64,000 bases of DNA from Aliidiomarina soli (GTDB taxonomy: Bacteria > Pseudomonadota > Gammaproteobacteria > Enterobacterales > Alteromonadaceae), in NCBI RefSeq assembly GCF_003986975.1, contig NZ_PIPO01000001.1, forward strand, positions 248,001 to 312,000. The letters run 5' to 3'. The notes under the pieces are model-generated. The model was not told the origin of the DNA and did no database searches. It saw nothing but the letters and a program-made list of their open reading frames with translations. The translations under genes were made by a program, and so were the position numbers. Positions 25,060 through 51,250 of this stretch are shown one piece after another. Each line of letters starts with the position of its first letter. Positions within the stretch are counted from its first letter, which is position 1.

Positions 25060-25539
25060 ATGCAACGCTGCAGTCATTTTTCGGTTGGTCCTTTTACCTT
25101 GCTGGTATGGCATGACGAGCAGGCTATTTTTCAAAGCCGTCTTAGCGCTGAGCCGCAATCCGTTCCCACTCAGGAGAGCAGTCACTTTGCGCTAGCAAAG
25201 CAAATTCAAAATCAGCTTGATGACTACCTTGCTGGTCAGCGAAGGTCGTTTGAGTTGCCCCTGCAGGCACAGGGTACCCCATTTCAAAAACAGGTCTGGC
25301 AGCTCATGCAGAGCATTCCCTGTGGCCAGACGCTAACCTACGGCGACGCCGCCAAACATCTGCAAAGTGCAGCTCAGCCGGTGGGCGGTGCCTGTCGTGC
25401 GAACCCCATTGCATTTTTTATTCCTTGCCACCGTATTGTTAGCCGCCAGGGCATCGGAGGCTATGCAGGGCAGTGGGGACAGGGAGAACGTGTAGATATG
25501 AAAAGCTGGCTGTTGGCCCATGAGCGGTCTATCGCATGA
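25060..25539 (+). CDS. ogt: Methylated-DNA--[protein]-cysteine S-methyltransferase
   Basis: A 159-residue suicide DNA-repair protein. The acceptor Cys123 is in the motif IPCHRIVS, preceded by the Asn hinge and RNA-binding-like helix region GGACRANPIAF. TYGDAAKHL is the usual helix-turn-helix. Its length and lack of an Ada regulatory domain fit Ogt. Its TGA overlaps the xerD ATG by four bases. Confidence 0.93.
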   Translation: MQRCSHFSVGPFTLLVWHDEQAIFQSRLSAEPQSVPTQESSHFALAKQIQNQLDDYLAGQRRSFELPLQAQGTPFQKQVWQLMQSIPCGQTLTYGDAAKHLQSAAQPVGGACRANPIAFFIPCHRIVSRQGIGGYAGQWGQGERVDMKSWLLAHERSIA

Positions 25540-26447
25540 GCGCCGACGACGATCTGATATTGATTGAACAGTTTTTGGATGACCTTTGGCTGCAGCAGGG
25601 CGTAAGCAAGAATACGCTGGCGGCATACCGTACCGACTTAAAGCAGTTTAGTCAGTTACTGCAGAGCCAAATTGGTCGTCCTATTCATCAGATAACCCGG
25701 GACGATCTCGATATCGCGATGCTGGCCATGCAACGTGCGGGCAAAAGCTCGCGCAGCAGCGCCCGCTTTCTTAGTGCGGCACGAAAATTTTACCGCTATT
25801 TATTGCATACCGAGCAACGCGCGGATGATCCCACCAGCAATATGCGTACGCCCAAACAAGCGCTGAACCTGCCCAAAAGCTTAAGTGAAAGCGATGTCGA
25901 GGCATTGCTCGAAGCAGCCGATACTAGCTCTGCGCTGGGCTTGCGCGACCGTTGTATGCTCGAAGTTCTGTATGCTACAGGTTTACGGGTGAGTGAACTG
26001 GTCGGGTTGCAGGTGAGTGAAGTAAATCTGCGCCAGGGCGTTATTAGGGTCACCGGTAAAGGCGACAAAGAGCGTCTGGTCCCCATGGGTGAAGAAGCGA
26101 TGGATTGGCTGCAACGGTATCTGAAAACCAGCCGACCCGAGTTACTGGCCAGCGGGAAGAAAGGTCCCACCGATGTGGTGTTTTTATCGCTGCGCGGACA
26201 GCAGATGACCCGGCAAACCTTTTGGCACCGGATCAAGCAACTGGCCGCACAGGCAGGACTGAATGCTGACTTATCGCCGCACACGCTGCGCCATGCATTT
26301 GCTACCCACTTACTTAACCATGGTGCTGACCTGCGTGCGTTGCAAATGCTGTTGGGCCATTCGGATATTGCGACTACGCAAATCTATACCCATGTCGCCC
26401 GGGCGCGTTTACAGGCGCTGCATAAAACCCATCATCCACGCGGTTAG
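25536..26447 (+). CDS. xerD: Site-specific tyrosine recombinase XerD
   Basis: A 303-residue recombinase resolving chromosome dimers at dif with XerC. The catalytic residues are all visible: Arg151 (ATGLRVSEL), Lys175 (VTGKGDKER), His249 and Arg252 (HTLRHAFATH), a His in LLGHSDIATT and the nucleophile Tyr284 (TQIYTHV). The N-terminal SAM-like core-binding domain is intact. The gene order xerD-dsbC-recJ-prfB-lysS, as in E. coli, separates it from xerC. Confidence 0.95.
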   Translation: MSADDDLILIEQFLDDLWLQQGVSKNTLAAYRTDLKQFSQLLQSQIGRPIHQITRDDLDIAMLAMQRAGKSSRSSARFLSAARKFYRYLLHTEQRADDPTSNMRTPKQALNLPKSLSESDVEALLEAADTSSALGLRDRCMLEVLYATGLRVSELVGLQVSEVNLRQGVIRVTGKGDKERLVPMGEEAMDWLQRYLKTSRPELLASGKKGPTDVVFLSLRGQQMTRQTFWHRIKQLAAQAGLNADLSPHTLRHAFATHLLNHGADLRALQMLLGHSDIATTQIYTHVARARLQALHKTHHPRG

Positions 26448-39502: not shown

Positions 39503-42500
39503 ATGCACAGCTTAACGCCCGGGTTTATCGCGGCTCACAGCCATCGTTTAGAAGATCTGACTGAAGTCGCAGTTAAGCTGATGGCTGCCTATCCGCTGGC
39601 GCCTTTACAGGAAGAAGCCATTCTGGTGCAATCCAATGGTATCGCCCAATGGCTTAAAACAGAGCTGGCGACGACGACCGGCATCGCTACCATGCTCGAT
39701 GTAACCCTGCCTGCGCGGTTCGTCTGGCGTGCCTACCGTGCGGTACTTGGTGACGATATTCCACGTCATTCGCCGTATGACAAAGACCGCTTGCGCTGGC
39801 GTTTGATGCGTCTGCTGCCAGATCTGATGCAGTCAGATCCCATCTTCGCCCAGTTACAAAACTATGTCGCCGATGACAGTGATCAGCGCAAGCTGTTCCA
39901 GCTCAGCGATAAACTGGCCGACCTACTTGACCAGTACCAGGTCTACCGCGCTGAATGGCTCGACGCCTGGACCCGTGGTGACGACGTGTTGCTGGAAAAA
40001 GGGCAGGCATTGCCTTTAGACCAAAACCAACGCTGGCAACCCGCACTGTGGCGTGCGTTGGTTGCGGATATCGGCATTGAAGAAATCTGCAGCAACCGGG
40101 CCGCCTTGCACCGTCGCTTTATAGAACAGGCTCAGGCGCTGGATGCCTGTCCGGCGGGCTTGCCGCCGCGGGTGATTGTGTTTGGTATCTCCTCGCTGCC
40201 GCGGCAAACGCTGGAGGTGCTGCATGCGCTGAAAGGGGTCTGCCAGGTGATGCTGTGTGTGCATAACCCGTGTCAGTACCACTGGGCTGATATCATTGAC
40301 GGCCGTGAGTTGTTTGGTAAAAACCTGCTGGCGCGGCATGCCAATAAAGGCGCCAGTTTAGATCAGGTGGAGGGTGACCAGTTGCATTTGCATGCGCACC
40401 CGCTGCTGGCATCCTGGGGTAAACAAGGGCGGGACTACATTCGCTTGCTTGATGAGTTCGACGAAACCCGTCAGGTTGAAGGCGAGTTTGCTGACTTGCG
40501 CTTTGATCTCTTTAGCGAAAGCGAACCGCAAAATCTATTGCAGCAATTGCAAAGCGACATTCTGCATTTACGTCCGTTGCATGAGACTCAACAAATGTGG
40601 GGCCAGCAACTGGCTGCTAACGACCGTTCGATCGCCTTCCATCGCTGCCATAGCCCGCAACGCGAGGTCGAGGTACTGCATGATCAGTTGCTTGCAGCCT
40701 TCGCCAGCGATCCGCAGTTACAACCACGTGATGTGATGGTGATGGTGCCGGACATCAATAACTACGCCCCCTATATTGATGCAGTGTTCGGTCGTTTGCA
40801 GCGTAACGATAAACGCTACATTCCGTATACCATTGCCGATCAGGGCCAGCGCCACCGTAACCCGATGTTGATTGCACTGGACCTGGTGCTGGCTGCGCCA
40901 CAGCAACGCTTTACCCATAGTGATATTTTTGATTTGCTGCATGTACCGGCCTTGCAGCAACGCTTTGGCCTGCAGCACAAAGACGTCGAATTGTTGCAAC
41001 AGTGGTCTGCTGAAGCTGGGGCACGCTGGGGCTTACAGGCTTTGCACCGACAGTCACTGGGACTTGAAATCAGCTATCAGGAAAACAGCTGGCTGTTTGC
41101 ATTAAAACGTATGCTCTATGGCTATGCCGCTGGTGATGTCGAGGGTGAACCCTGGCAGGGCATTGAACCCTACAGCGAAGTGGCCGGAATGCAGGCCCAG
41201 GCCGCCGGGGCGCTGGCTGAATTAGTACGCGTGCTTGAGCATTACTGGCAGGCACTGGCGCAAAGTCGCAGTGCGGCAGAATGGCACCCGTTATTACAGG
41301 GCCTGCTGGATGATTTGTTCCGTGCCAATGAAGACAGCGAACGGCTGTTGCTGAACCGGCTGCGAGATGGCCTTGATAGCTGGCTGGAGAGCGTTAACGA
41401 GGCCAGTTTCAATGGCGACCTCAGGTACAACATTGTGCAGGAAGTGTGGTTGTCGGGCATCGATGAAGGCAGTCTCAATCAGCGTTTTATGGCCGGGGCG
41501 GTGAATTTTTCGACCCTGATGCCGATGCGCGCAATTCCCTTTAGCAAGGTCTGTCTGCTCGGTATGAACGATGCCGACTACCCACGCAGCGTGACTAAAG
41601 CCGACTTTGATCTGATGGTTGGCCATTATCAGCCAGGCGACCGGTCCCGTCGAGAGGACGACCGCTACCTCTTTTTAGAAGCCTTGTTGTCAGCCCGTGA
41701 ACAGCTGTATATCAGCTGGGTCGGCATGAGCGCGCAGGACAATACTGAACTGCCGCCTTCGGTGCTGATAGGCCAGTTGCAGGACCATCTGGATCTGGGC
41801 TGGTCGACTGCGGCTGACGTAGGGGCGGACGGTGAGCAGTCATTGCCAAGCCAGCAACTGACGCAAAGCCATCGCTTGCAGCCGTTCTCGGCTGCTTATT
41901 TTGCGCGCACTGAGCCTGCCGGCGACTATTATTTTACCTACGCACGGGAATGGGCGGCTGTTCATATGACCGGTAATCAGAATCCTGCGTTAGTAAGCGA
42001 CAACGCTGAGAAAATGCCAGTGCTACCGCCGTATCAGGCTGAATCATCGTTCAGTCTGTTCGAGCTGGAACTGCTCCTGAAACAACCTGCTGAGCTGTTT
42101 GCGCGCAAACGGCTCGGGGTGCGACTGGACAACTTAAGCAGTGAGTCATTTGATGATGAAACCTTTAGTTTTAACAAACTGGATGAGTGGAAAGTAAAGC
42201 ACGAGCTGGTCACTACATTGCTGGCAACAACGCCGATGGGAGGCGAGAACAGCGAACACAGTGCGCAGGTGGTGCGCCAGTGTTTTAGCCGTATTCGTCG
42301 GCGCGCCCAGCTGCCACTCTCGTTTGAGGCCGATTTATTGCAACAGACGCTAAGTGACAAGGCAGACGCTATTGCTGAACGGTTGCGTGGGTACTGGCAT
42401 GCGGGCTTTAAGCCCTTAGCCGCGCAGCCATTTGATATGATGCTGGGCAATTATCAGTTGCAGGGTGAATTGGGTCAGTTGTACCAGAATCCCGATCAAC

Positions 42501-43030
42501 CCGCGCAGGTGACCCAACTGCTGGTGAAAGTCAGCAAAGTGGCGGATATCAAGAAAAAGAGTGCGACTGCAATACCACGCCATGCTTTGCCATTATGGCT
42601 GCAGCACTTAGTTGCTCAGGTTGTTGTGGGCGATAATGTGCAGCTTAGCAGTGTATTAATTGGCGATGGCGCCAGTATTAGCTTACCGGCTCAGTCTGCA
42701 GCGACTGCTCAGGCGCAATTGCAGGCTTTGGGTAAGCAATTGGACCAGGCGTTGCTGACGCCATTACCGGTTGCTTTATCGCTGGCCTGGCAGTGGCTGA
42801 ATACGGAGCGGGAAGAGGAAAAGTTACCACTGGCCGAAAAAGCCTTGCTGCAAGCCTATGAGGGAGGTCGTTATAGCGCCGCCGAACGTGACAGCTTGCC
42901 CTATCTGGCGCGCTTTTTCCCGCAAGGTCAGGATTTGCTCGACGCGGGCTTTGCCAGCGTTGCCGAGGAACTTTATCTGCCCTTTATTGAAGCAATGCAA
43001 GGCGCGACGATCCAGGGGGATGCCGAATGA
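39503..43030 (+). CDS. recC: Exodeoxyribonuclease V subunit gamma (RecC)
   Basis: A 1175-residue subunit (E. coli 1122) of the RecBCD helicase-nuclease that resects double-strand breaks and reads Chi. The inactive SF1 helicase fold is recognisable from VQSNGIAQWLKTELA near the N-terminus, VMVPDINNYAPYIDAVFG in the middle and MRAIPFSKVCLLGMNDADYPR later. AAGGA precedes the ATG. It overlaps recB by four bases (ATGA). Confidence 0.95.
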   Translation: MHSLTPGFIAAHSHRLEDLTEVAVKLMAAYPLAPLQEEAILVQSNGIAQWLKTELATTTGIATMLDVTLPARFVWRAYRAVLGDDIPRHSPYDKDRLRWRLMRLLPDLMQSDPIFAQLQNYVADDSDQRKLFQLSDKLADLLDQYQVYRAEWLDAWTRGDDVLLEKGQALPLDQNQRWQPALWRALVADIGIEEICSNRAALHRRFIEQAQALDACPAGLPPRVIVFGISSLPRQTLEVLHALKGVCQVMLCVHNPCQYHWADIIDGRELFGKNLLARHANKGASLDQVEGDQLHLHAHPLLASWGKQGRDYIRLLDEFDETRQVEGEFADLRFDLFSESEPQNLLQQLQSDILHLRPLHETQQMWGQQLAANDRSIAFHRCHSPQREVEVLHDQLLAAFASDPQLQPRDVMVMVPDINNYAPYIDAVFGRLQRNDKRYIPYTIADQGQRHRNPMLIALDLVLAAPQQRFTHSDIFDLLHVPALQQRFGLQHKDVELLQQWSAEAGARWGLQALHRQSLGLEISYQENSWLFALKRMLYGYAAGDVEGEPWQGIEPYSEVAGMQAQAAGALAELVRVLEHYWQALAQSRSAAEWHPLLQGLLDDLFRANEDSERLLLNRLRDGLDSWLESVNEASFNGDLRYNIVQEVWLSGIDEGSLNQRFMAGAVNFSTLMPMRAIPFSKVCLLGMNDADYPRSVTKADFDLMVGHYQPGDRSRREDDRYLFLEALLSAREQLYISWVGMSAQDNTELPPSVLIGQLQDHLDLGWSTAADVGADGEQSLPSQQLTQSHRLQPFSAAYFARTEPAGDYYFTYAREWAAVHMTGNQNPALVSDNAEKMPVLPPYQAESSFSLFELELLLKQPAELFARKRLGVRLDNLSSESFDDETFSFNKLDEWKVKHELVTTLLATTPMGGENSEHSAQVVRQCFSRIRRRAQLPLSFEADLLQQTLSDKADAIAERLRGYWHAGFKPLAAQPFDMMLGNYQLQGELGQLYQNPDQPAQVTQLLVKVSKVADIKKKSATAIPRHALPLWLQHLVAQVVVGDNVQLSSVLIGDGASISLPAQSAATAQAQLQALGKQLDQALLTPLPVALSLAWQWLNTEREEEKLPLAEKALLQAYEGGRYSAAERDSLPYLARFFPQGQDLLDAGFASVAEELYLPFIEAMQGATIQGDAE

Positions 43031-46000
43031 GTGCGACTGTGTCCAGCAAACAGCTTTCCAGCCCAATGCAGCTGCCATTAACTGGTAGCGCACTGATTGA
43101 GGCCAGTGCCGGAACCGGTAAAACCTACACCATTGCGGCGCTCTACGTGCGCTTTATTCTTGCTCATATTGACAGTAAAGACACGGCGGCGGTGCGGCCT
43201 GAACCCTTGCTTCCGCCGAATATTCTGGTGGTGACCTTTACCAAAGCGGCGACGGCAGAGCTGAAAGACCGTATTCGCCGGCGTCTGGTTGAATCGGCCC
43301 ACTGGTTTCGTCAGTCGGCTGGTGGCAGCAGCGACGACCCGGTACTGGATGCGTTGCGTGACAGCTATGCGGAAGAAAAATGGCCGGCGTGTGCTCAGGC
43401 GTTGCAGGTGGCCAGTGAGTGGATGGACGAAGCGAGCGTTAAAACTATTCACAGCTGGTGTCAGACCTTGTTGCGCGAGCATGCCTTTAGCAGTGGTAGT
43501 TTGTTTAGCCAGGAGCTCACCACCGAGCTAAGTCAATTTAAACTGGATGCGGCCCGTGATTACTGGCGCAACTTTGTCTACCCACTACGCGAACAGGATT
43601 ACCTGGCGGTGGCGGCGGTGGCGAACTCACCAGAGTCACTACTGAGTCTGATTTACAGTGTCTGGGGGCAGGTTGCTGATGGCCAGCCAGAGCCGATCGA
43701 TATTACGGCGCTGCGGGGGCAAAAGCAGGCCGACTACGAGCGCGCGGTAGGCGAGGCCTATAAGGCGTGGCAACAGTATTTACCGGCCCTGTATGACTAT
43801 GTCGACCAGGCCGAGGCCAATGGCTGGCTTACTAACAAGCGCAAGCTCAGTAGTAAACTGGTGCGGACGCGAATGCATGCCATTGAAAGCTGGCTGGACC
43901 TGGATGAACAGGAGGCATTGAACGCTTTGCCCCCGGTTAGTGATGCGCTGGTGACCAATTATTCGAGTGCGGGCTTTGCTGAACTGATCAGCGAGCCTGT
44001 GGCTGATTTGCCATTTCTGGACCAGACGGTGGCGCTGGCGGAATTAGCCAAAGGGGCGGCCGGCATTCGCGAAGAATTACTGAGCCATGCTGCACAGTGG
44101 GTCAAGCAGCGCTTTAGCGATAAGCTGCAGCAGCTGGCGCTGATGGGCTTTGATGACATTATCGAGCAGTGTCGCAAAGCATTGCAGCGGGACGCGGGTG
44201 ACACCCTGGCGGACTTAGTCCGCACCCAGTATCCGGTGGCGATGATCGATGAATTTCAGGACACGGATCCGGATCAGTACGCGATTTTCAATGCGGTGTA
44301 CCAGCTTCGTCAGCAACGCGAGGATGTTGCGGTGTACCTGATAGGCGACCCTAAACAAGCGATTTATGCGTTTCGGGGCGCTGACATTTTTACCTACCTG
44401 CAGGCACGGCGGGATACTGAAGGGCGCCACTTCACCTTGGCACGTAATTTTCGCTCGACCAGCAGCATGGTGGAGGCGAGCAATCAGATTTTTCTGGCGG
44501 CGGAGGAACGCCAACCGAAGAAGGCGTTCCTGTTTAATGGCGAACGCAACGGGAAACGAGATAACGAGGTGCCTTTTGTGGCGGTCGAGGCTCAGGGTCA
44601 GACATCACATCTGGTGATTGATGGGCAGCCTGCAGAAAAAGCGTTGACCCTGTGGACCAGTCTTAATAGCCAGAACGAGCAAAAGGCGTTAAGCAAAGAA
44701 GCCTACGGCACTACCCAGGCGGAAAGTTGTGCCAGCTATATTGTGCATTTGCTCAATAGTGCGAGCCAGGGACAGAGCGGCATTGAGGATGAAAGCAAAG
44801 GCTTTCGTCCGTTACGTAGTGCTGATATGGCGGTGCTGGTTAACAGTCGCGTGCAGGGCTACATGGTGCAACAGAGCCTGCGTCGTCGTGGCGTTGCCAG
44901 TGTATTTCTGTCCGATCGAAACTCAGTATTTGATACGGCGGTAGCCAAAGATGTGCTGAGCATTTTGCATGCCTGTGCCCATCCGGGTCAGCGCCAGGCA
45001 CTGACGAATGCACTCTATAGCGGCTTGCTCGCGGTACCGTTGGAAGAGCTGGAACGGTTGCAACATGACGATCTGGCCTGGGACAGACGGGTCGAACAAT
45101 GTTATCAGTTGGCGCAGGTGTGGCAGCAGCAAGGGGTCCTGGCCATGCTGCATCAGCTTATTCATGACTTCGATATTGCCAGCCGCCTATTGGCTCAGGT
45201 GGGCGGCGAGCGTGACACCACCGACCTGTTGCATCTTGCTGAGTTATTGCAGCAGGCTGCCAGTCGGTTAGACGGTGAACAAGCCTTGCTGCGTTACCTG
45301 CAGGATAAAATTTACCAAAGCGACGACGATGGTGCCGATGAGCAAACGGTGCGTTTGGAAAGTGATTCCGAGCTGGTCCAGATAGTCACCGTGCATAAGT
45401 CAAAAGGACTCGAATATCCACTGGTCTTTTTACCGTTCAGCAGTGACAGCAAGCCGATCAGCAAGAAACGGCCGGTGGTTCATTTTCACGATGACGACGG
45501 GCGGCGCCTGCACAGCAGCAAACCAACCGAGCAACAACTGGCTCGTGCCGACGAGGAGCGTTTAGGCGAAGAGATCCGCCACCTGTATGTGGCACTAACA
45601 CGGTCAAAATATGCCTGCTGGGCTAGCTTGGCGCCGGTCAGTGAATGGCAGAAGAGTGCGTTGGCGTACCTGGCATTAGCAGATCAAGTAGATGCATCAG
45701 ATGCGAACAGTCTACTGCAACAAGCGGCGAAAACCTGGGGGAAATCAGACGCAGTGGCCCTGATGACTCAACCTGAGGCTAGCAGTGAGCATTGGCAGGC
45801 ACCGGCCGCAGAAATCAGTGCCCCTTCGTATTGCAGGATGCCAACCAATCATCGTTTCGAACCCTGGTGGATCGCCAGTTACTCGGCACTGAAATACGGC
45901 GCGTTGCGCGAGCCGGAAACCGCGCTCGAAGCAAATTTATTGGACGATGCCGATGACCTTGAGGGGGCAGGTTCGCTGGCAGGGCCGGTTCAGCCTGGTA

Positions 46001-46785
46001 GCGACCAGCGCCATGTTCAAATCCACGATTTACCGCGTGGAGCAGGGCCGGGGACCTTCCTGCATAACCTGTTCGAAGATGCCGCGGAGCTGGGGTTTGC
46101 CAATGTGGCGCAGAATGCAGAGGTGCGTGAAGCTTTGCTCGACAAACGTTGCAGACATGGTCAGTGGAAAGAGCGTCGTCAGCAGCTGGATGGCTGGTTG
46201 CAACAGTATTTGCAGCTTGAGTTTCCGTTACCCGCGGAAAGTACGTCGGTTTCTGCTGCATCGAGCGTACGACTGGCTGATTTAACAGCCTACAAAGCGG
46301 AACCTGAGTTTTGGTTTGGGGTGCGCGGGGTTAGTGCCGAGCGCCTCGATAACTTGGTCTCGAAACACGTACTAAGCGAATTTGCGCGCCCGGCGCTGCA
46401 GCCCAACTACCTCAACGGCATGCTAAAAGGCTTTATTGACCTGGTGTTTGAGCACGAGGGGCGTTATTACGTGGCTGATTACAAATCCAATTACCTTGGC
46501 GCGGATGACAGCGCCTACACCGACGAAGCGATGCGCGAGAAGATACTCGGGAGCCGTTATGATATGCAGTACGTGCTCTATAGCCTGGCTTTACACAAGC
46601 TGTTAAAAACCCGGCTAGGTGATGCCTATGATTACGACAGCCATGTTGGCGGTGTGCTTTACCTGTTCCTGCGTGGGCATAACGCATTATCGCGAGGGGC
46701 GTTTACCGACAAGCCGTCGCGGGAACTGATCGAAGAGCTGGAGCAGTATCTGCTGGCGGTTAATGAGACGGAGCCGACCTTATGA
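43027..46785 (+). CDS. recB: Exodeoxyribonuclease V subunit beta (RecB)
   Basis: A 1252-residue UvrD-type 3'-5' helicase and nuclease. Walker A is ASAGTGKT (Lys32), Walker B MIDEFQDTDP, motif IV region ARNFRSTSSMV and motif VI HLYVALTRSKYA. The C-terminal nuclease keeps Asp1138, Asp1151 and Lys1153 (FIDLVF and ADYKSN), matching E. coli Asp1067, Asp1080 and Lys1082 in spacing. It follows recC directly; the ptrA gene found between them in E. coli is absent. Confidence 0.97.
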   Translation: MSATVSSKQLSSPMQLPLTGSALIEASAGTGKTYTIAALYVRFILAHIDSKDTAAVRPEPLLPPNILVVTFTKAATAELKDRIRRRLVESAHWFRQSAGGSSDDPVLDALRDSYAEEKWPACAQALQVASEWMDEASVKTIHSWCQTLLREHAFSSGSLFSQELTTELSQFKLDAARDYWRNFVYPLREQDYLAVAAVANSPESLLSLIYSVWGQVADGQPEPIDITALRGQKQADYERAVGEAYKAWQQYLPALYDYVDQAEANGWLTNKRKLSSKLVRTRMHAIESWLDLDEQEALNALPPVSDALVTNYSSAGFAELISEPVADLPFLDQTVALAELAKGAAGIREELLSHAAQWVKQRFSDKLQQLALMGFDDIIEQCRKALQRDAGDTLADLVRTQYPVAMIDEFQDTDPDQYAIFNAVYQLRQQREDVAVYLIGDPKQAIYAFRGADIFTYLQARRDTEGRHFTLARNFRSTSSMVEASNQIFLAAEERQPKKAFLFNGERNGKRDNEVPFVAVEAQGQTSHLVIDGQPAEKALTLWTSLNSQNEQKALSKEAYGTTQAESCASYIVHLLNSASQGQSGIEDESKGFRPLRSADMAVLVNSRVQGYMVQQSLRRRGVASVFLSDRNSVFDTAVAKDVLSILHACAHPGQRQALTNALYSGLLAVPLEELERLQHDDLAWDRRVEQCYQLAQVWQQQGVLAMLHQLIHDFDIASRLLAQVGGERDTTDLLHLAELLQQAASRLDGEQALLRYLQDKIYQSDDDGADEQTVRLESDSELVQIVTVHKSKGLEYPLVFLPFSSDSKPISKKRPVVHFHDDDGRRLHSSKPTEQQLARADEERLGEEIRHLYVALTRSKYACWASLAPVSEWQKSALAYLALADQVDASDANSLLQQAAKTWGKSDAVALMTQPEASSEHWQAPAAEISAPSYCRMPTNHRFEPWWIASYSALKYGALREPETALEANLLDDADDLEGAGSLAGPVQPGSDQRHVQIHDLPRGAGPGTFLHNLFEDAAELGFANVAQNAEVREALLDKRCRHGQWKERRQQLDGWLQQYLQLEFPLPAESTSVSAASSVRLADLTAYKAEPEFWFGVRGVSAERLDNLVSKHVLSEFARPALQPNYLNGMLKGFIDLVFEHEGRYYVADYKSNYLGADDSAYTDEAMREKILGSRYDMQYVLYSLALHKLLKTRLGDAYDYDSHVGGVLYLFLRGHNALSRGAFTDKPSRELIEELEQYLLAVNETEPTL

Positions 46786-48974
46786 ATAAGGTGGTAAGTA
46801 ATGATGTATATAACGAGGGGACTGCGTTGACTGAGCTTGAAGCCTGGTACAACGCCGGCTGGATCCGCGCACTGGACTTGAATCTGGCGCGGTTTTTACA
46901 GTCTGAGCAGGTAGCGGATGAGCGCGTGCTGGTACTGGCTGTGTTGTTGTCGCATCAGGTCGGGCGAGGCCATGTTTGCCTGCCGCTCAAAGAACTATTC
47001 GGCAGTCCGCAGCTGTTATTAAATTTACCGCCCGCGCACAGCCGCTTCACTGATGAGGAGCACGAGCTTGTTTCGCCATTGCAGTTGTTGACCCGGCTAG
47101 GCGTGACCACCGAAGCCGACCTGGAGGGCGCACTTAGCGCATCTGAAGCCGTCGCAGATAGCCCGCAAACTGACGTGACACCGCTGGTTTATCAGCATGG
47201 TGCGCTGTATCTGCGTCGCTATTGGCATTATGAAGCGCGCATAGCGTCAGCGTTGCAGGAGCGTATGCAGCTATCCGGACAAGGATCGCGGGCCCCTGAT
47301 ATCGCTGCAGAAACCCTGCAACAGGCGCTGGATGAGCTGTTTCCGCACGCTGCTGATTCGACTACCAGCAGTCCGACAGGCATAGAGCGGGTTAACTGGC
47401 AGAAGCTGGCGTGTGCTAATACGTTGCGCAGTCGTTTCAGTGTAATCACTGGTGGCCCTGGTACCGGTAAAACCTATACTGTGGTGCGTTTGTTGGCGAT
47501 GTTGCAGCGTTTGGCCGCCGAGCCATTACGGATCCGACTGGCAGCGCCGACCGGAAAAGCTGCGGCGCGCCTTAAAGAATCTATTAGTAACGCATTGCAC
47601 GAGATGCAGCAAAGTACTGAACTGAGTGAGTGGCAACAGGTACTGCAGCGCATCGAGAGCGATAGCTCGACCTTGCATAAGTTGCTTGGCGTGCAGCAGG
47701 GTACGCGAAAATTTCGTCATCACCGGGGCAACCCGTTAAGCCTGGATGTACTGGTAGTCGATGAGGCGAGCATGGTCGATATCGAACTGATGGACGCGAC
47801 TCTGGAGGCCTTACCGGCTCATGCTCAGCTTATTTTGCTTGGTGACAAAGACCAGCTGGCGTCAGTGGAAGCGGGAGCGGTGCTGGGCCAGCTTTGTCAG
47901 GGTGCCGAGCAGGGCGGTTACAACCAACAAAGCTTCGACTACCTGCAGTCATTCAGCGACACCCCGTTACCTGATTTTTTGCGTGCCGCTGACGGCCCGT
48001 CCTATCTGCAGCATGTCGTCATGTTGCGGGTCAGCCGGCGCTTCGATGGTCGTAGCGGCGTTGGCCATCTGGCGTATGCGATTAACGCTGGCGACAGTAA
48101 ACGGGCGGCGCAGCTATTGCTGGGTTCGCAGGCGGCTGAGGCGGCAGGGGCTTCCCATGAGCAACAGACCGCCAACTCATTCAGTGACATTGCGGTATTG
48201 CAGAGCACGGGGACGGAAACTGTGAGTCAGCGACAACTTTTTGCTCAGCAGCAACCAGCATTGACTGAAGACCTGCGCCGTCTGTGTGTGCAAGGTTTCA
48301 GTGGTTATTTGCAGCAAATTAAACAGCGTCCGGATGCGCAGGCCAGCGACGATGACATCGACACCTGGGCGCGCTCAGTACTGGCCGGTTACAGCAATTT
48401 TCAACTGCTAACCCCGGTGCGCGAAGGTGAGTTTGGGGTGGCTGGTTTAAATGCGCAAATCGAACGCTGGTTAAAATCGGCATTGCAGACGCTTAAAAAG
48501 ACAGCTGCCGGAGAATCTGAACCACTTCAGCCCGCACTAGCGACTGAGAAGGGGAATGGGGCTAACCAGGCGAGTGAGCAATGGTATGAAGGACGCCCGG
48601 TGATGATCACTGAAAATGACTATAGCCTCAATTTGCGTAACGGTGATATTGGCATGGTACTGGTGTCGCCGCGCGATGGACGAAAACGGGTGGTCTTTGT
48701 CGATAGCGACAACACCTTGCGCTGGATCCTGCCCAGTCGGTTACGCGAAGTGCAGACGGTGTTTGCGATGACAGTGCATAAGTCTCAGGGCTCGGAATTC
48801 ACTCATACGGTGATGGTGTTACCAGAGCAGGACAACCCAGTGCTTTGTCGGGAGCTGGTCTACACCGGCGTCACCCGCGCCAAAAAGCAGCTGACCATGG
48901 TCGTGCCCGACTGGCACGTCTTCCACCAAAGCGTCCAACGCCGAACCCTCCGCGCTGGCCGTCTCCACCTCTGA
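46782..48974 (+). CDS. recD: Exodeoxyribonuclease V subunit alpha (RecD)
   Basis: A 730-residue 5'-3' SF1B helicase, longer than E. coli RecD (608). The Walker A is GGPGTGKT (Lys230), Walker B VVDEASMVD and the C-terminal motif MTVHKSQGSEF. Extra length lies in linkers such as AAGESEPLQPALATEKG near residue 580. It overlaps recB by four bases. The stop codon is at the edge of the inverted repeat that follows. Confidence 0.96.
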   Translation: MNKVVSNDVYNEGTALTELEAWYNAGWIRALDLNLARFLQSEQVADERVLVLAVLLSHQVGRGHVCLPLKELFGSPQLLLNLPPAHSRFTDEEHELVSPLQLLTRLGVTTEADLEGALSASEAVADSPQTDVTPLVYQHGALYLRRYWHYEARIASALQERMQLSGQGSRAPDIAAETLQQALDELFPHAADSTTSSPTGIERVNWQKLACANTLRSRFSVITGGPGTGKTYTVVRLLAMLQRLAAEPLRIRLAAPTGKAAARLKESISNALHEMQQSTELSEWQQVLQRIESDSSTLHKLLGVQQGTRKFRHHRGNPLSLDVLVVDEASMVDIELMDATLEALPAHAQLILLGDKDQLASVEAGAVLGQLCQGAEQGGYNQQSFDYLQSFSDTPLPDFLRAADGPSYLQHVVMLRVSRRFDGRSGVGHLAYAINAGDSKRAAQLLLGSQAAEAAGASHEQQTANSFSDIAVLQSTGTETVSQRQLFAQQQPALTEDLRRLCVQGFSGYLQQIKQRPDAQASDDDIDTWARSVLAGYSNFQLLTPVREGEFGVAGLNAQIERWLKSALQTLKKTAAGESEPLQPALATEKGNGANQASEQWYEGRPVMITENDYSLNLRNGDIGMVLVSPRDGRKRVVFVDSDNTLRWILPSRLREVQTVFAMTVHKSQGSEFTHTVMVLPEQDNPVLCRELVYTGVTRAKKQLTMVVPDWHVFHQSVQRRTLRAGRLHL

Positions 48975-49053
48975 TTCAACATTCAAGCGCGGGGCTCGAT
49001 CATTGAATGGTCTTACCAATTCAACGTTCAAGCCCCGCGCTTGAATGTTGAAT
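48974..49053. repeat. Perfect 23-bp inverted repeat between recD and the FAN1-like gene
   Basis: The left arm (48974-48996, ATTCAACATTCAAGC...GGGGCT) and right arm (49031-49053) are perfect reverse complements. They enclose 34 bases that hold a further imperfect TTGAATGGT/ACCAATTCAA stem. The word TTCAACRTTCAAG occurs three times in all. The arm begins on the last base of the recD stop codon and the structure ends 16 bases before the next ATG. There is no T-run. Confidence 0.92.
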
Positions 49054-49069
49054 GTGGTAAAATAGCGCG

Positions 49070-51250
49070 ATGAAAACTTTGCCACCTACCTATTATCTTG
49101 ACCATTTCTATGAATTTCTGGGCTATCTGGAAGGGCCCTGTGCGCACCTGTTAAATGCTGCTGATAAAGACTTTATTGCAGAATTCAAAGCGCTTAGTCA
49201 CGATGCGCAGTTGGTCCTGGTGCGTATCTATAATCGACAGTCGGTGTATGTGCGGCGAGACTCGCTGAGCTATGAAGAGATTGATAACCCTCGCGCGGGT
49301 CTGAATGAGCTGTTTGCTGCCGGATTAGTCAATGATGTTTCTGAAACTGGTTTTGCACGCTTACTCGAACAGCTGAACAAAGCTGAACTGCAGAGTTTAC
49401 TGGCTGAGAGCCCGCAAAAAGCACCAGCAAAGTCGGCGAAGAAAGCGCTCTGGTTTGAGTTTGCTCAGGCACATGCGGTGTTTAGTGCTAGTGAAGACTG
49501 GCTGAACGAACAGTATCTTGAGCAGCAGCAGGAACAACGGCTGGCCTATTTCCTGTTTCTGTATTTTGGCAATGTGCGGGCGCGGCTGAATCAGCTATCG
49601 ATGCGCGATTTGGGCGTCATGCGTACCCGTCAACTGTCCCATGAGGCCCAGGCACGTTTTACTAGCGCTGACGAAGCGCGTGGTCAGTTTTATTATCGCT
49701 GGCTTGGGTTGAGTCTGAAAAACACCCAGGATCAAGCACTGGATGAATTCATTGCCATGCTGGAGGAAAATCCGGCAACGACGAATCGTATAGCCAGTGT
49801 ACTGGAGGCGCGGGATCGTTTTTACTGGCAACTGGCAAAACGTCTGCTGCAAAGCCCGCTTGAGCAGCATGATGATCATTACTCAATTCAGATCCTCAAG
49901 CACTCGCGGGCGGCCGATGCAGTGGAAAAGCGGCTGCGTCTTGAATATCAGCAAGGTTGGAAAGAACAGGTCAAAAGCGAACTCGAAGCTATTATCGATG
50001 ACCCCGACAGTGAAACGCTGTATGTGTTTGCGGTGGATTTTTATCAACGTAAGTTCCATCGCAAACGGACCAGCATGCTGACCGATATGCTGCGCGACAG
50101 CAGCGCGCCTATCCCGCTCGATGAAGCCTATGTCAGCCATGTCGAGCAAGGCGTTTGCGCCTATTACGAGCGTCAGGGCATCACAGCTCTGCGCAGTGAA
50201 AACGTGTTATGGCGGGCGTTGTTCGGACTGACCTTTTGGCCGGAGTTATATCAGAACCCGAAAGCGGGTGTCAGCAATGAATTCGACTGGCTGCCGCGGC
50301 TACTGAAACAGAATACCTTCTACGCTGAGCTGGAGCACGAGATAGAAGCCAGGCTGGCGCAGCTGCAAACGCCGCAACAGTGGCTTACCCATGTGCTGCA
50401 GGTTAGCACCCGGCATTATGGTCAGGTCAATGGTGTCTTTAGCTGGCACCAATCACTGCTTGAACTAATAAAGCCCTTACTGACGCAAGCACCTGTTGTG
50501 CAAACCCAGGCAGTGTTGCGCGCGATGGCTCGGGACTACCATCAACTCAGTGATGGCTTCGCGGATTTAATGGTGCTCGATGAGCAAGGTTTGCGTTTTG
50601 AAGAAATAAAAGCACCCGGCGACAGCTTACGACGCAATCAGCTGATTACGTTGCAGTGCCTGAAAAAGGCGGGCTTTGAGGTTGCGATCCGGCGGGTAGA
50701 GTGGATGTATAACCCCGACCAGGCTTACGTTGTGGTTGATGTGGAAACTACGGGTGGTAACCATAGCAGCCATCGGGTGACAGAAGTTGGCATGGTGAAG
50801 GTCATTAATGGTCAGGTGGTCGACCGCTGGCAATCGCTGGTCAATCCACAGCGTTACATTCCCGCACGGATTACTGAACTGACAGGCATCAGCAACGAGA
50901 TGGTGGCGGATGCGCCGGTGTTTGAAGCCGTGGCTGAGGCGATCGATGAGTTCTGTCAGGACGCTATTTTTGTCGCCCATAATGTGAATTTTGATTACGG
51001 TTTTCTGAAGCGGGAAATGGAGCGGGCAGGACGCCGTCTTAATCTTCCGAAACTGTGCACGGTGCGAATGGCGCGAAAACAATTCCCAGGGTTAGCATCC
51101 TACTCACTGGGGCGCTTGTGTGAGCAGTTGGGAATCGAACTGGTTCGCCATCACCGTGCCTTAGACGACGCCTGCGCCGCGGCGGGAATACTGCGTTTGG
51201 TACAACAGAGTCAACTACAACAAAATCTGATACAACAAGCCAGAAGCTAA
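49070..51250 (+). CDS. FAN1-like VRR-NUC nuclease fused to a DnaQ-type 3'-5' exonuclease
   Basis: A 726-residue protein. Residues 1 to about 535 look like bacterial FAN1, a structure-specific nuclease for crosslink repair: an N-terminal helical part, a TPR-like middle and a VRR-NUC domain with Asp499 (GFADLMVL) and Glu512-x-Lys514 (EEIKAPGD). Residues about 553-720 are a DEDDh exonuclease with Asp557 and Glu559 (VVDVETTGG), Asp642 (HNVNFDYGF), His695 and Asp700 (HRALDDA). Both active sites look complete. It lies after recCBD, which fits DNA repair. FAN1 recognition is from family memory. Confidence 0.85.
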   Translation: MKTLPPTYYLDHFYEFLGYLEGPCAHLLNAADKDFIAEFKALSHDAQLVLVRIYNRQSVYVRRDSLSYEEIDNPRAGLNELFAAGLVNDVSETGFARLLEQLNKAELQSLLAESPQKAPAKSAKKALWFEFAQAHAVFSASEDWLNEQYLEQQQEQRLAYFLFLYFGNVRARLNQLSMRDLGVMRTRQLSHEAQARFTSADEARGQFYYRWLGLSLKNTQDQALDEFIAMLEENPATTNRIASVLEARDRFYWQLAKRLLQSPLEQHDDHYSIQILKHSRAADAVEKRLRLEYQQGWKEQVKSELEAIIDDPDSETLYVFAVDFYQRKFHRKRTSMLTDMLRDSSAPIPLDEAYVSHVEQGVCAYYERQGITALRSENVLWRALFGLTFWPELYQNPKAGVSNEFDWLPRLLKQNTFYAELEHEIEARLAQLQTPQQWLTHVLQVSTRHYGQVNGVFSWHQSLLELIKPLLTQAPVVQTQAVLRAMARDYHQLSDGFADLMVLDEQGLRFEEIKAPGDSLRRNQLITLQCLKKAGFEVAIRRVEWMYNPDQAYVVVDVETTGGNHSSHRVTEVGMVKVINGQVVDRWQSLVNPQRYIPARITELTGISNEMVADAPVFEAVAEAIDEFCQDAIFVAHNVNFDYGFLKREMERAGRRLNLPKLCTVRMARKQFPGLASYSLGRLCEQLGIELVRHHRALDDACAAAGILRLVQQSQLQQNLIQQARS

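Follow-up and report, generated by a model that had tools for sequence, protein, structure and literature searches.

What does a gene do that places two complete nucleases on one chain and stands directly behind recCBD? Such a gene lies at positions 49070-51250 (+ strand) of a 64,000-nucleotide stretch of the Aliidiomarina soli genome, which we call the window. An initial annotation had read it as one polypeptide joining a FAN1-like VRR-NUC nuclease to a DnaQ-type exonuclease, had suggested, from its place next to RecBCD, a single machine that incises and then resects DNA or that proofreads ends made by RecBCD, and had left open how widespread the fusion is. Human FAN1 is a crosslink-repair nuclease; to our knowledge, the role of FAN1 in bacteria has been little studied. 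A literature search, judged on titles and abstract openings, found no published description of a FAN1-DEDDh fusion.

We identified the fusion gene from its single open frame, its Pfam domains and alignments of its relatives. The frame starts with ATG and encodes 726 amino acids, with neither a stop codon nor a frameshift between the two domains in the ORF reading. The Pfam scan found three domains, each over its own cut-off: FAN1_HTH (PF21315, E 1.8e-16) at residues 8-87 (49091-49330, +), VRR_NUC (PF08774, E 1.4e-11, 44.9 bits, cut-off 23.8) at residues 442-545 (50393-50704, +), and the DEDDh 3'-5' exonuclease domain RNase_T (PF00929, E 1.8e-37) at residues 554-707 (50729-51190, +). The single polypeptide with a VRR-NUC and a DnaQ-type half was thus borne out, and the VRR_NUC match covers residues 450-540, where the initial annotation had expected it. 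Neither the Pfam scan nor a GIY profile detected a GIY-YIG domain in the protein, which is the sole VRR_NUC match in its own genome. In alignments to PDB entries, residues 356-541 run along the nuclease domain of human FAN1.

Structure prediction, which had been proposed as a check, gave a confident AlphaFold2 model (40-row alignment, mean pLDDT 93.8, pTM 0.87). In this model residues 5-548 resemble PaFAN1 bound to 5'-flap DNA (5y7g; Z 27.0, 523 residues aligned, rmsd 3.7, 22% identity) and, with Z 20.5-22.2, human FAN1, while residues 548-718 resemble the exonuclease of Staphylococcus aureus DinG (Z 27.0, rmsd 1.3) and the domain structures of Escherichia coli epsilon (Z 22.3-23.5). Foldseek returned the same families as the structural alignment, namely FAN1 and DEDDh exonucleases. 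A FAN1 N-terminal body precedes the nuclease, as indicated by FAN1_HTH at residues 8-87 together with the fold match to PaFAN1 and human FAN1. A two-helix insertion in the VRR-NUC domain is described as keeping FAN1 monomeric in a passage of PMC4103454; between strands 372-375 and 500-504 our model is helical. Sequence and model together confirm that a single chain in the window combines a full bacterial FAN1 with a complete DEDDh exonuclease.

Both active sites are intact. The VRR-NUC residues D499, E512 and K514 (FADLM...EEIK; 50564-50611, +) and the DEDDh residues D557, E559, D642, H695 and D700 (50738-51169, +) stand at the positions first named for them, and the 43 residues from K514 to D557 agree with an earlier estimate of about 45. 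All eight residues were invariant in 17 sequences from the family and order, in 40 sequences made up of the window and 39 picked from the 60 named fused loci of our survey, and finally in 61/61 rows when the window was aligned with every one of these 60. E377 (50198-50200, +), a conserved glutamate of the nuclease region, was present in 60 of the 61 rows, the exception (L129) being truncated there by the contig end. Since the two sites are invariant across these alignments, we take them to be conserved and not the product of chance. A comparison with the 95%-identical protein of genome G010 gave a dN/dS of 0.155 overall, 0.057 in the VRR-NUC segment and 0.061 in the DEDDh segment; by this measure both nuclease segments are under purifying selection.

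The survey answered the question of spread. The fusion occurs in 17 of 58 genomes of relatives and in 46 of 147 genomes of the family, 54 of which have a VRR_NUC match. Samples of the class and of the phylum, where the best two or three candidates per genome were scored so that the counts are lower bounds, contained it in at least 5/369 and at least 11/398 genomes, respectively, with two copies in one genome of the phylum sample. FAN1 without the exonuclease was commoner among the genomes listed (13 vs 5 in the class, 44 vs 11 in the phylum). A named survey of the best 80 of 488 relatives from a capped scan comprised 60 fused loci, a lower bound, and 20 Bacteroidota proteins, mostly of Flavobacterium, with a DEDDh and a GIY-YIG domain (DEDDh-GIY-YIG). 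Among the 60 fused loci 58 are in one frame and one is truncated at a contig end (L129); the last (L124:5959-8020, a Woeseiaceae MAG) has the gene in two overlapping frames, a frameshift or an assembly error. Hosts include Alteromonas, Pseudoalteromonas, Glaciecola, Idiomarina, Aliidiomarina, Arenicella, Woeseiaceae, Bradyrhizobium, Asticcacaulis and Verrucomicrobiota, among others. In the sampled sequences the fusion is thus common in the family to which the window belongs, with scattered occurrences in other Gammaproteobacteria and in Alphaproteobacteria and Verrucomicrobiota, and on this evidence we regard it as confirmed that it is a real and widespread member of the FAN1 family with an added, conserved exonuclease.

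Two observations from the same samples are recorded here for themselves. In G602, the phylum-sample genome with two fused copies, the two score equally (C1:5689468-5691585 and C1:1298175-1300292). In the phylum sample, 20 genomes contained a frame of 388-534 amino acids that matched DEDDh strongly; a FAN1-only gene was also present in 11 of the 20, against 44/398 overall, a comparison in which a few families dominate and two candidates per genome were scored.

Phylogenies of the two halves point to a common origin. In the FAN1 tree, 41 fused proteins grouped as one clade against 18 FAN1-only proteins (SH-aLRT 99); in the DEDDh tree, 43 fused proteins likewise fell into one clade (SH-aLRT 97). 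Both trees contain selected fused rows; the truncated loci L182, L188, L190, L191, L207 and L208 were left out of the FAN1 tree, in which PaFAN1 has no row. In the sampled sequences the fusion therefore has a single origin, being one clade in both halves.

The closest DEDDh relatives that we found were not DnaQ proteins; they were proteins with an exonuclease followed by a GIY-YIG domain, the latter assigned by Pfam on three proteins and by the GIY profile on 37. A profile of these DEDDh-GIY-YIG proteins gave 218-247 bits for the 46 fused proteins in the family and 132 or less for the other DEDDh matches listed there; conversely, a profile of the fused module scored DEDDh-GIY-YIG proteins at 162-226 bits and seven DnaQ-like proteins at 100-135. 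The fused DEDDh module is at most 55% identical to that of Bacteroidota DEDDh-GIY-YIG proteins. In the tree, the fused DEDDh clade was sister (93) to nine Bacteroidota DEDDh-GIY-YIG rows, and with seven DnaQ-like rows as outgroup it was nested inside 26 DEDDh-GIY-YIG rows. The module was therefore likely transferred from a GIY-YIG partner to FAN1, a direction that is likely and not proven because the tree came from a quick search with SH-aLRT values only and the program flagged the long branches of its outgroup. By description and domain order, the DEDDh-GIY-YIG proteins match the Cho+Exo group of the UvrC-like family outlined in a passage of PMC1564403. We also considered mutual exclusion of the two architectures: a DEDDh-GIY-YIG protein was absent from 46/46 fusion-bearing genomes of the family and from 27/27 other fusion-bearing genomes. 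The idea is unsupported and was dropped, because DEDDh-GIY-YIG occurs in 0/147 genomes of the whole family sample. As a separate observation, a DEDDh-GIY-YIG gene in the region L051:7582-15010 (G046) directly adjoins an AddA-like gene (UvrD helicase plus PDDEXK) and an AddB-like gene (PDDEXK).

We next asked how the fused gene may be regulated. The LexA motifs searched for were CTGT-N8-ACAG in gammaproteobacteria and GTTC-N7-GTTC or GAAC-N7-GAAC in alphaproteobacteria. Passages of PMC9578287 give the E. coli and Caulobacter forms, and the Caulobacter motif also appears in a passage of PMC12700426. The test covered the upstreams of 57 of the 60 named loci (41 gamma, 12 alpha and 4 Verrucomicrobiota; L121, L129 and L131 were dropped), with class labels assigned by hand and the start of the FAN1 domain taken as the gene start. 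Within 150 bp, a perfect gamma motif preceded 16 of 41 gamma fused genes and 4 of 326 other genes from the same loci; allowing one mismatch, the numbers were 26/41 and 16/326. The alpha motif preceded 10 of 12 alpha fused genes and 1 of 102 controls. When the control stretch was extended to -150..+100, allowing for misplaced starts, controls numbered 4/326 for gamma and 3/102 for alpha. Fisher values for these comparisons overstate the difference, because related rows were counted as independent. Sites found within 350 bp lay 22-92 bp (gamma) and 26-181 bp (alpha) before the FAN1 domain start, and over this distance the two motifs were seen in 20 and 13 of 73 upstreams, against 0.3 and 0.35 expected from shuffled upstreams. 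Since two classes with different LexA motifs agree, these sequence matches are strong evidence for SOS control of much of the fused family, and we predict from them that in many proteobacterial hosts LexA controls the fused gene and DNA damage induces it.

The boxes are unevenly distributed. Fifteen of the 41 gamma upstreams had no site at one mismatch (that of L124, a split gene, was measured inside the frame), and neither motif was found in the four Verrucomicrobiota fused genes. The window's own gene has no LexA box at two mismatches or fewer in 48851-49080, and the box is likewise absent before the other copies that lie next to recBCD (G010, G011 and G005). A box also occurs before 3 of 18 FAN1-only genes, some of whose upstreams are short; LexA control may for this reason belong to FAN1 and not to the fusion. 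The gamma motif was absent from all 37 DEDDh-GIY-YIG genes examined, a set that includes 17 from proteobacteria. The Pseudomonas aeruginosa FAN1 (PA1865) is reported in a passage of PMC12796719 to be induced by UV-C and ciprofloxacin and is placed there outside the three known damage regulons of that species.

These results favor, with a probability that we put at roughly 0.6, an SOS-type repair nuclease with two sites, in which FAN1 would incise branched or crosslinked DNA and the DEDDh domain would trim a 3' end; the biochemistry is inferred from homologs. By analogy with PaFAN1 and human FAN1, the FAN1 half would bind a branched or crosslinked structure and cut the 5'-flap strand stepwise past the junction; both 5'-flap cleavage and crosslink unhooking are thus expected activities of this half. 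The DEDDh half, by analogy a putative 3'-5' exonuclease, would then digest from a 3' end. Because the polarities are 5'-3' and 3'-5', the two sites would have to use different ends. At a crosslink or stalled branch, their joint action would either widen a gap in both directions or clean up a 3'-OH from which repair synthesis is primed. A similar task has been proposed for the exonuclease of a mycobacterial relative of Cho: a passage of PMC1564403 relates the proposal that it digests the damaged strand from a Cho-type incision and leaves a primer end. The incise-then-resect idea of the initial annotation is thereby kept, as incise-then-trim, for the best mechanism; its RecBCD part is given up, since most loci are unlinked.

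The setting of the window nonetheless makes RecBCD the first alternative to weigh: the nuclease could be an accessory acting on the ends that RecBCD makes or leaves, which would explain why the genes lie together. As first described, recC (39503-43030, +; TIGR01450), recB (43027-46785, +; TIGR00609) and recD (46782-48974, +; TIGR01447), each over the NCBIfam cut-off, lie directly 5' of the gene; recC/recB and recB/recD overlap by 4 bp each, and 95 bp separate recD from the fused gene. The gene also lies 3' of recD on the same strand in G010, in G011 (gap of 15-18 bp according to the start codon) and in G005 (30-36 bp), and recD is present in all 17 genomes of the genus. Against this, these four cases, all from one genus, are the only ones among 17 fused loci in which recD adjoins the fusion, and the other 13 have no RecB, RecC or RecD match nearby. 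The named loci showed recBCD linkage in 2/60 (L072 and L073, the same cases as G011 and G005) and no RecBCD match within the flank in the other 58, three of which (L101, L129 and L131) are not judgeable for linkage, their sequence starting less than 1 kb before the gene. Within the genus, the fusion occurs in seven genomes, in four of them next to recD, whereas ten genomes have recD and lack the fusion; in G008, where the fusion is absent, the same DUF1318/YdbH flank lies about 2.1 kb after recD. The unlinked copies of the genus (G001, G006 and G016) share a contig with recD at a distance of 26-34 kb and have a LexA-box match. Elsewhere the close same-strand neighbors of the fused gene that we looked up are unrelated: arginase, a Na/Ca exchanger, GST, an amidohydrolase, a GDSL lipase, LysE and an FHA protein. 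Outside recBCD the neighborhoods of the fused loci revealed no clear recurrent partner gene, and the larger recurrent clusters reflect gene order shared within Alteromonas/Glaciecola and within Pseudoalteromonas.

Because the four linked proteins form one clade (SH-aLRT 100 in the FAN1 tree) and the other loci have unrelated neighbors, the recBCD linkage is, in the genomes compared, an event of one lineage, and RecBCD is not a fixed partner of the fused nuclease. We rejected a RecBCD partnership as a general rule on the locus counts and the neighbors; the proposed single machine with RecBCD was not borne out, its adjacency being limited to four genomes of one genus, and we consider an accessory role quite unlikely. 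Most simply, the gene in the window's lineage would have moved behind recCBD and lost its LexA box. The gap between recD and the fused gene has no LexA-box match and holds a REP-like double palindrome (48974-49053) with 72 matches in the genome when both strands are counted; contig C8 holds 60 of these. In the 20 kb that we inspected, its copies stand as pairs or as single 36-nt palindromes between ordinary genes. The palindrome ends are similar to integron attC boxes; the single palindromes and the ordinary genes between copies, and the lack of any integrase match over its family's cut-off, favor a REP-like element over an attC site. One weak integrase match fell on the ORF at 25536-26447, which we take from gene order to be XerD.

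A further possibility is that the DEDDh half was added for regulation or structure, serving in DNA-end binding or stability, with its exonuclease idle in vivo and the protein acting as an ordinary FAN1. The greater frequency of exonuclease-free FAN1 among the genomes listed (13 vs 5 and 44 vs 11) would fit this reading, whereas the five DEDDh residues that are invariant in 61/61 rows across Gammaproteobacteria, Alphaproteobacteria and Verrucomicrobiota, and the dN/dS of 0.061 in this segment, speak for a working exonuclease, and we judge an idle one to be unlikely. An anti-phage or mobile-element function is very improbable. It is suggested by matches of PADLOC PDC-S48 to residues 551-722 (E 4.8e-49) and of a CRISPR-associated DEDDh model to residues 554-708 (E 2.1e-41), but these are confined to the exonuclease, which fits many DnaQ-type models too, and the neighbors that we looked up included no defence genes. 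At a coverage of 80% or more, the fusion protein was matched by five records of plasmids or chromids, annotated, where annotation is given, as 'exonuclease domain-containing protein'. None of 50,697 phage records covers 80% of it; 20 match part, and all ten part-matches listed fall in the exonuclease. A PHROGs scan of the protein returned polymerase-type matches and one weak unknown, and the LexA-box matches favor DNA repair over defence. A defence or phage origin, with no support in neighbors or phage records, was rejected. A more detailed version of the two-site repair nuclease can be offered tentatively, as possible and less probable than its general form: an SOS-induced, UvrABC-free excision of crosslinks or bulky lesions, with FAN1 working 5'-3' and DEDDh 3'-5', in which the exonuclease would have moved from Cho+Exo and the window's lineage would have left SOS control behind recCBD.

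As a two-site repair nuclease, the fusion would allow incision and the trimming of 3' ends to be studied together in one polypeptide. Its two sites are conserved in Verrucomicrobiota and in both proteobacterial classes, and each of these two classes has LexA-box matches of its own kind; together this gives an indication of the pathway in which it may act. It also shows the same exonuclease cartridge paired with incision nucleases of two unrelated types, GIY-YIG and FAN1.

Among known systems, the bacterial FAN1 of P. aeruginosa (PaFAN1, PA1865), of the KIAA1018 subfamily of VRR-NUC, shares the HTH and VRR-NUC domains with the fusion. Its site, given as D507, E522 and K524 in a passage of PMC9635880, is the same D/E/K site, with a D-to-E spacing of 15 residues compared to 13 in the fusion. 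FAN1-only proteins lack the C-terminal DEDDh domain that only the fusion has, and the FAN1 half of the fusion falls in a clade separate from the 18 that we sampled. MmcB of Caulobacter, a LexA-controlled nuclease of PD-(D/E)XK type that is linked to mitomycin C resistance, is similar by description; the passage on it in PMC9578287 mentions no exonuclease fusion, whereas our protein has a DEDDh exonuclease. The exonuclease domains of DnaQ (Pol III epsilon), PolC and DinG have the same DEDDh fold and residues, although the seven DnaQ-like proteins in our tree, which has no DinG or PolC rows, fall in a clade separate from the fused modules. A parallel in design is found in Cho+Exo and Cho-like+Exo, as described in a passage of PMC1564403, where a DEDDh exonuclease is likewise joined to a repair endonuclease. 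The DEDDh-GIY-YIG proteins carry the exonuclease at the N-terminus with GIY-YIG as its partner, whereas the fusion carries it at the C-terminus with VRR-NUC; as judged from their domains, the exonuclease module is the only part that the fusion and Cho+Exo have in common.
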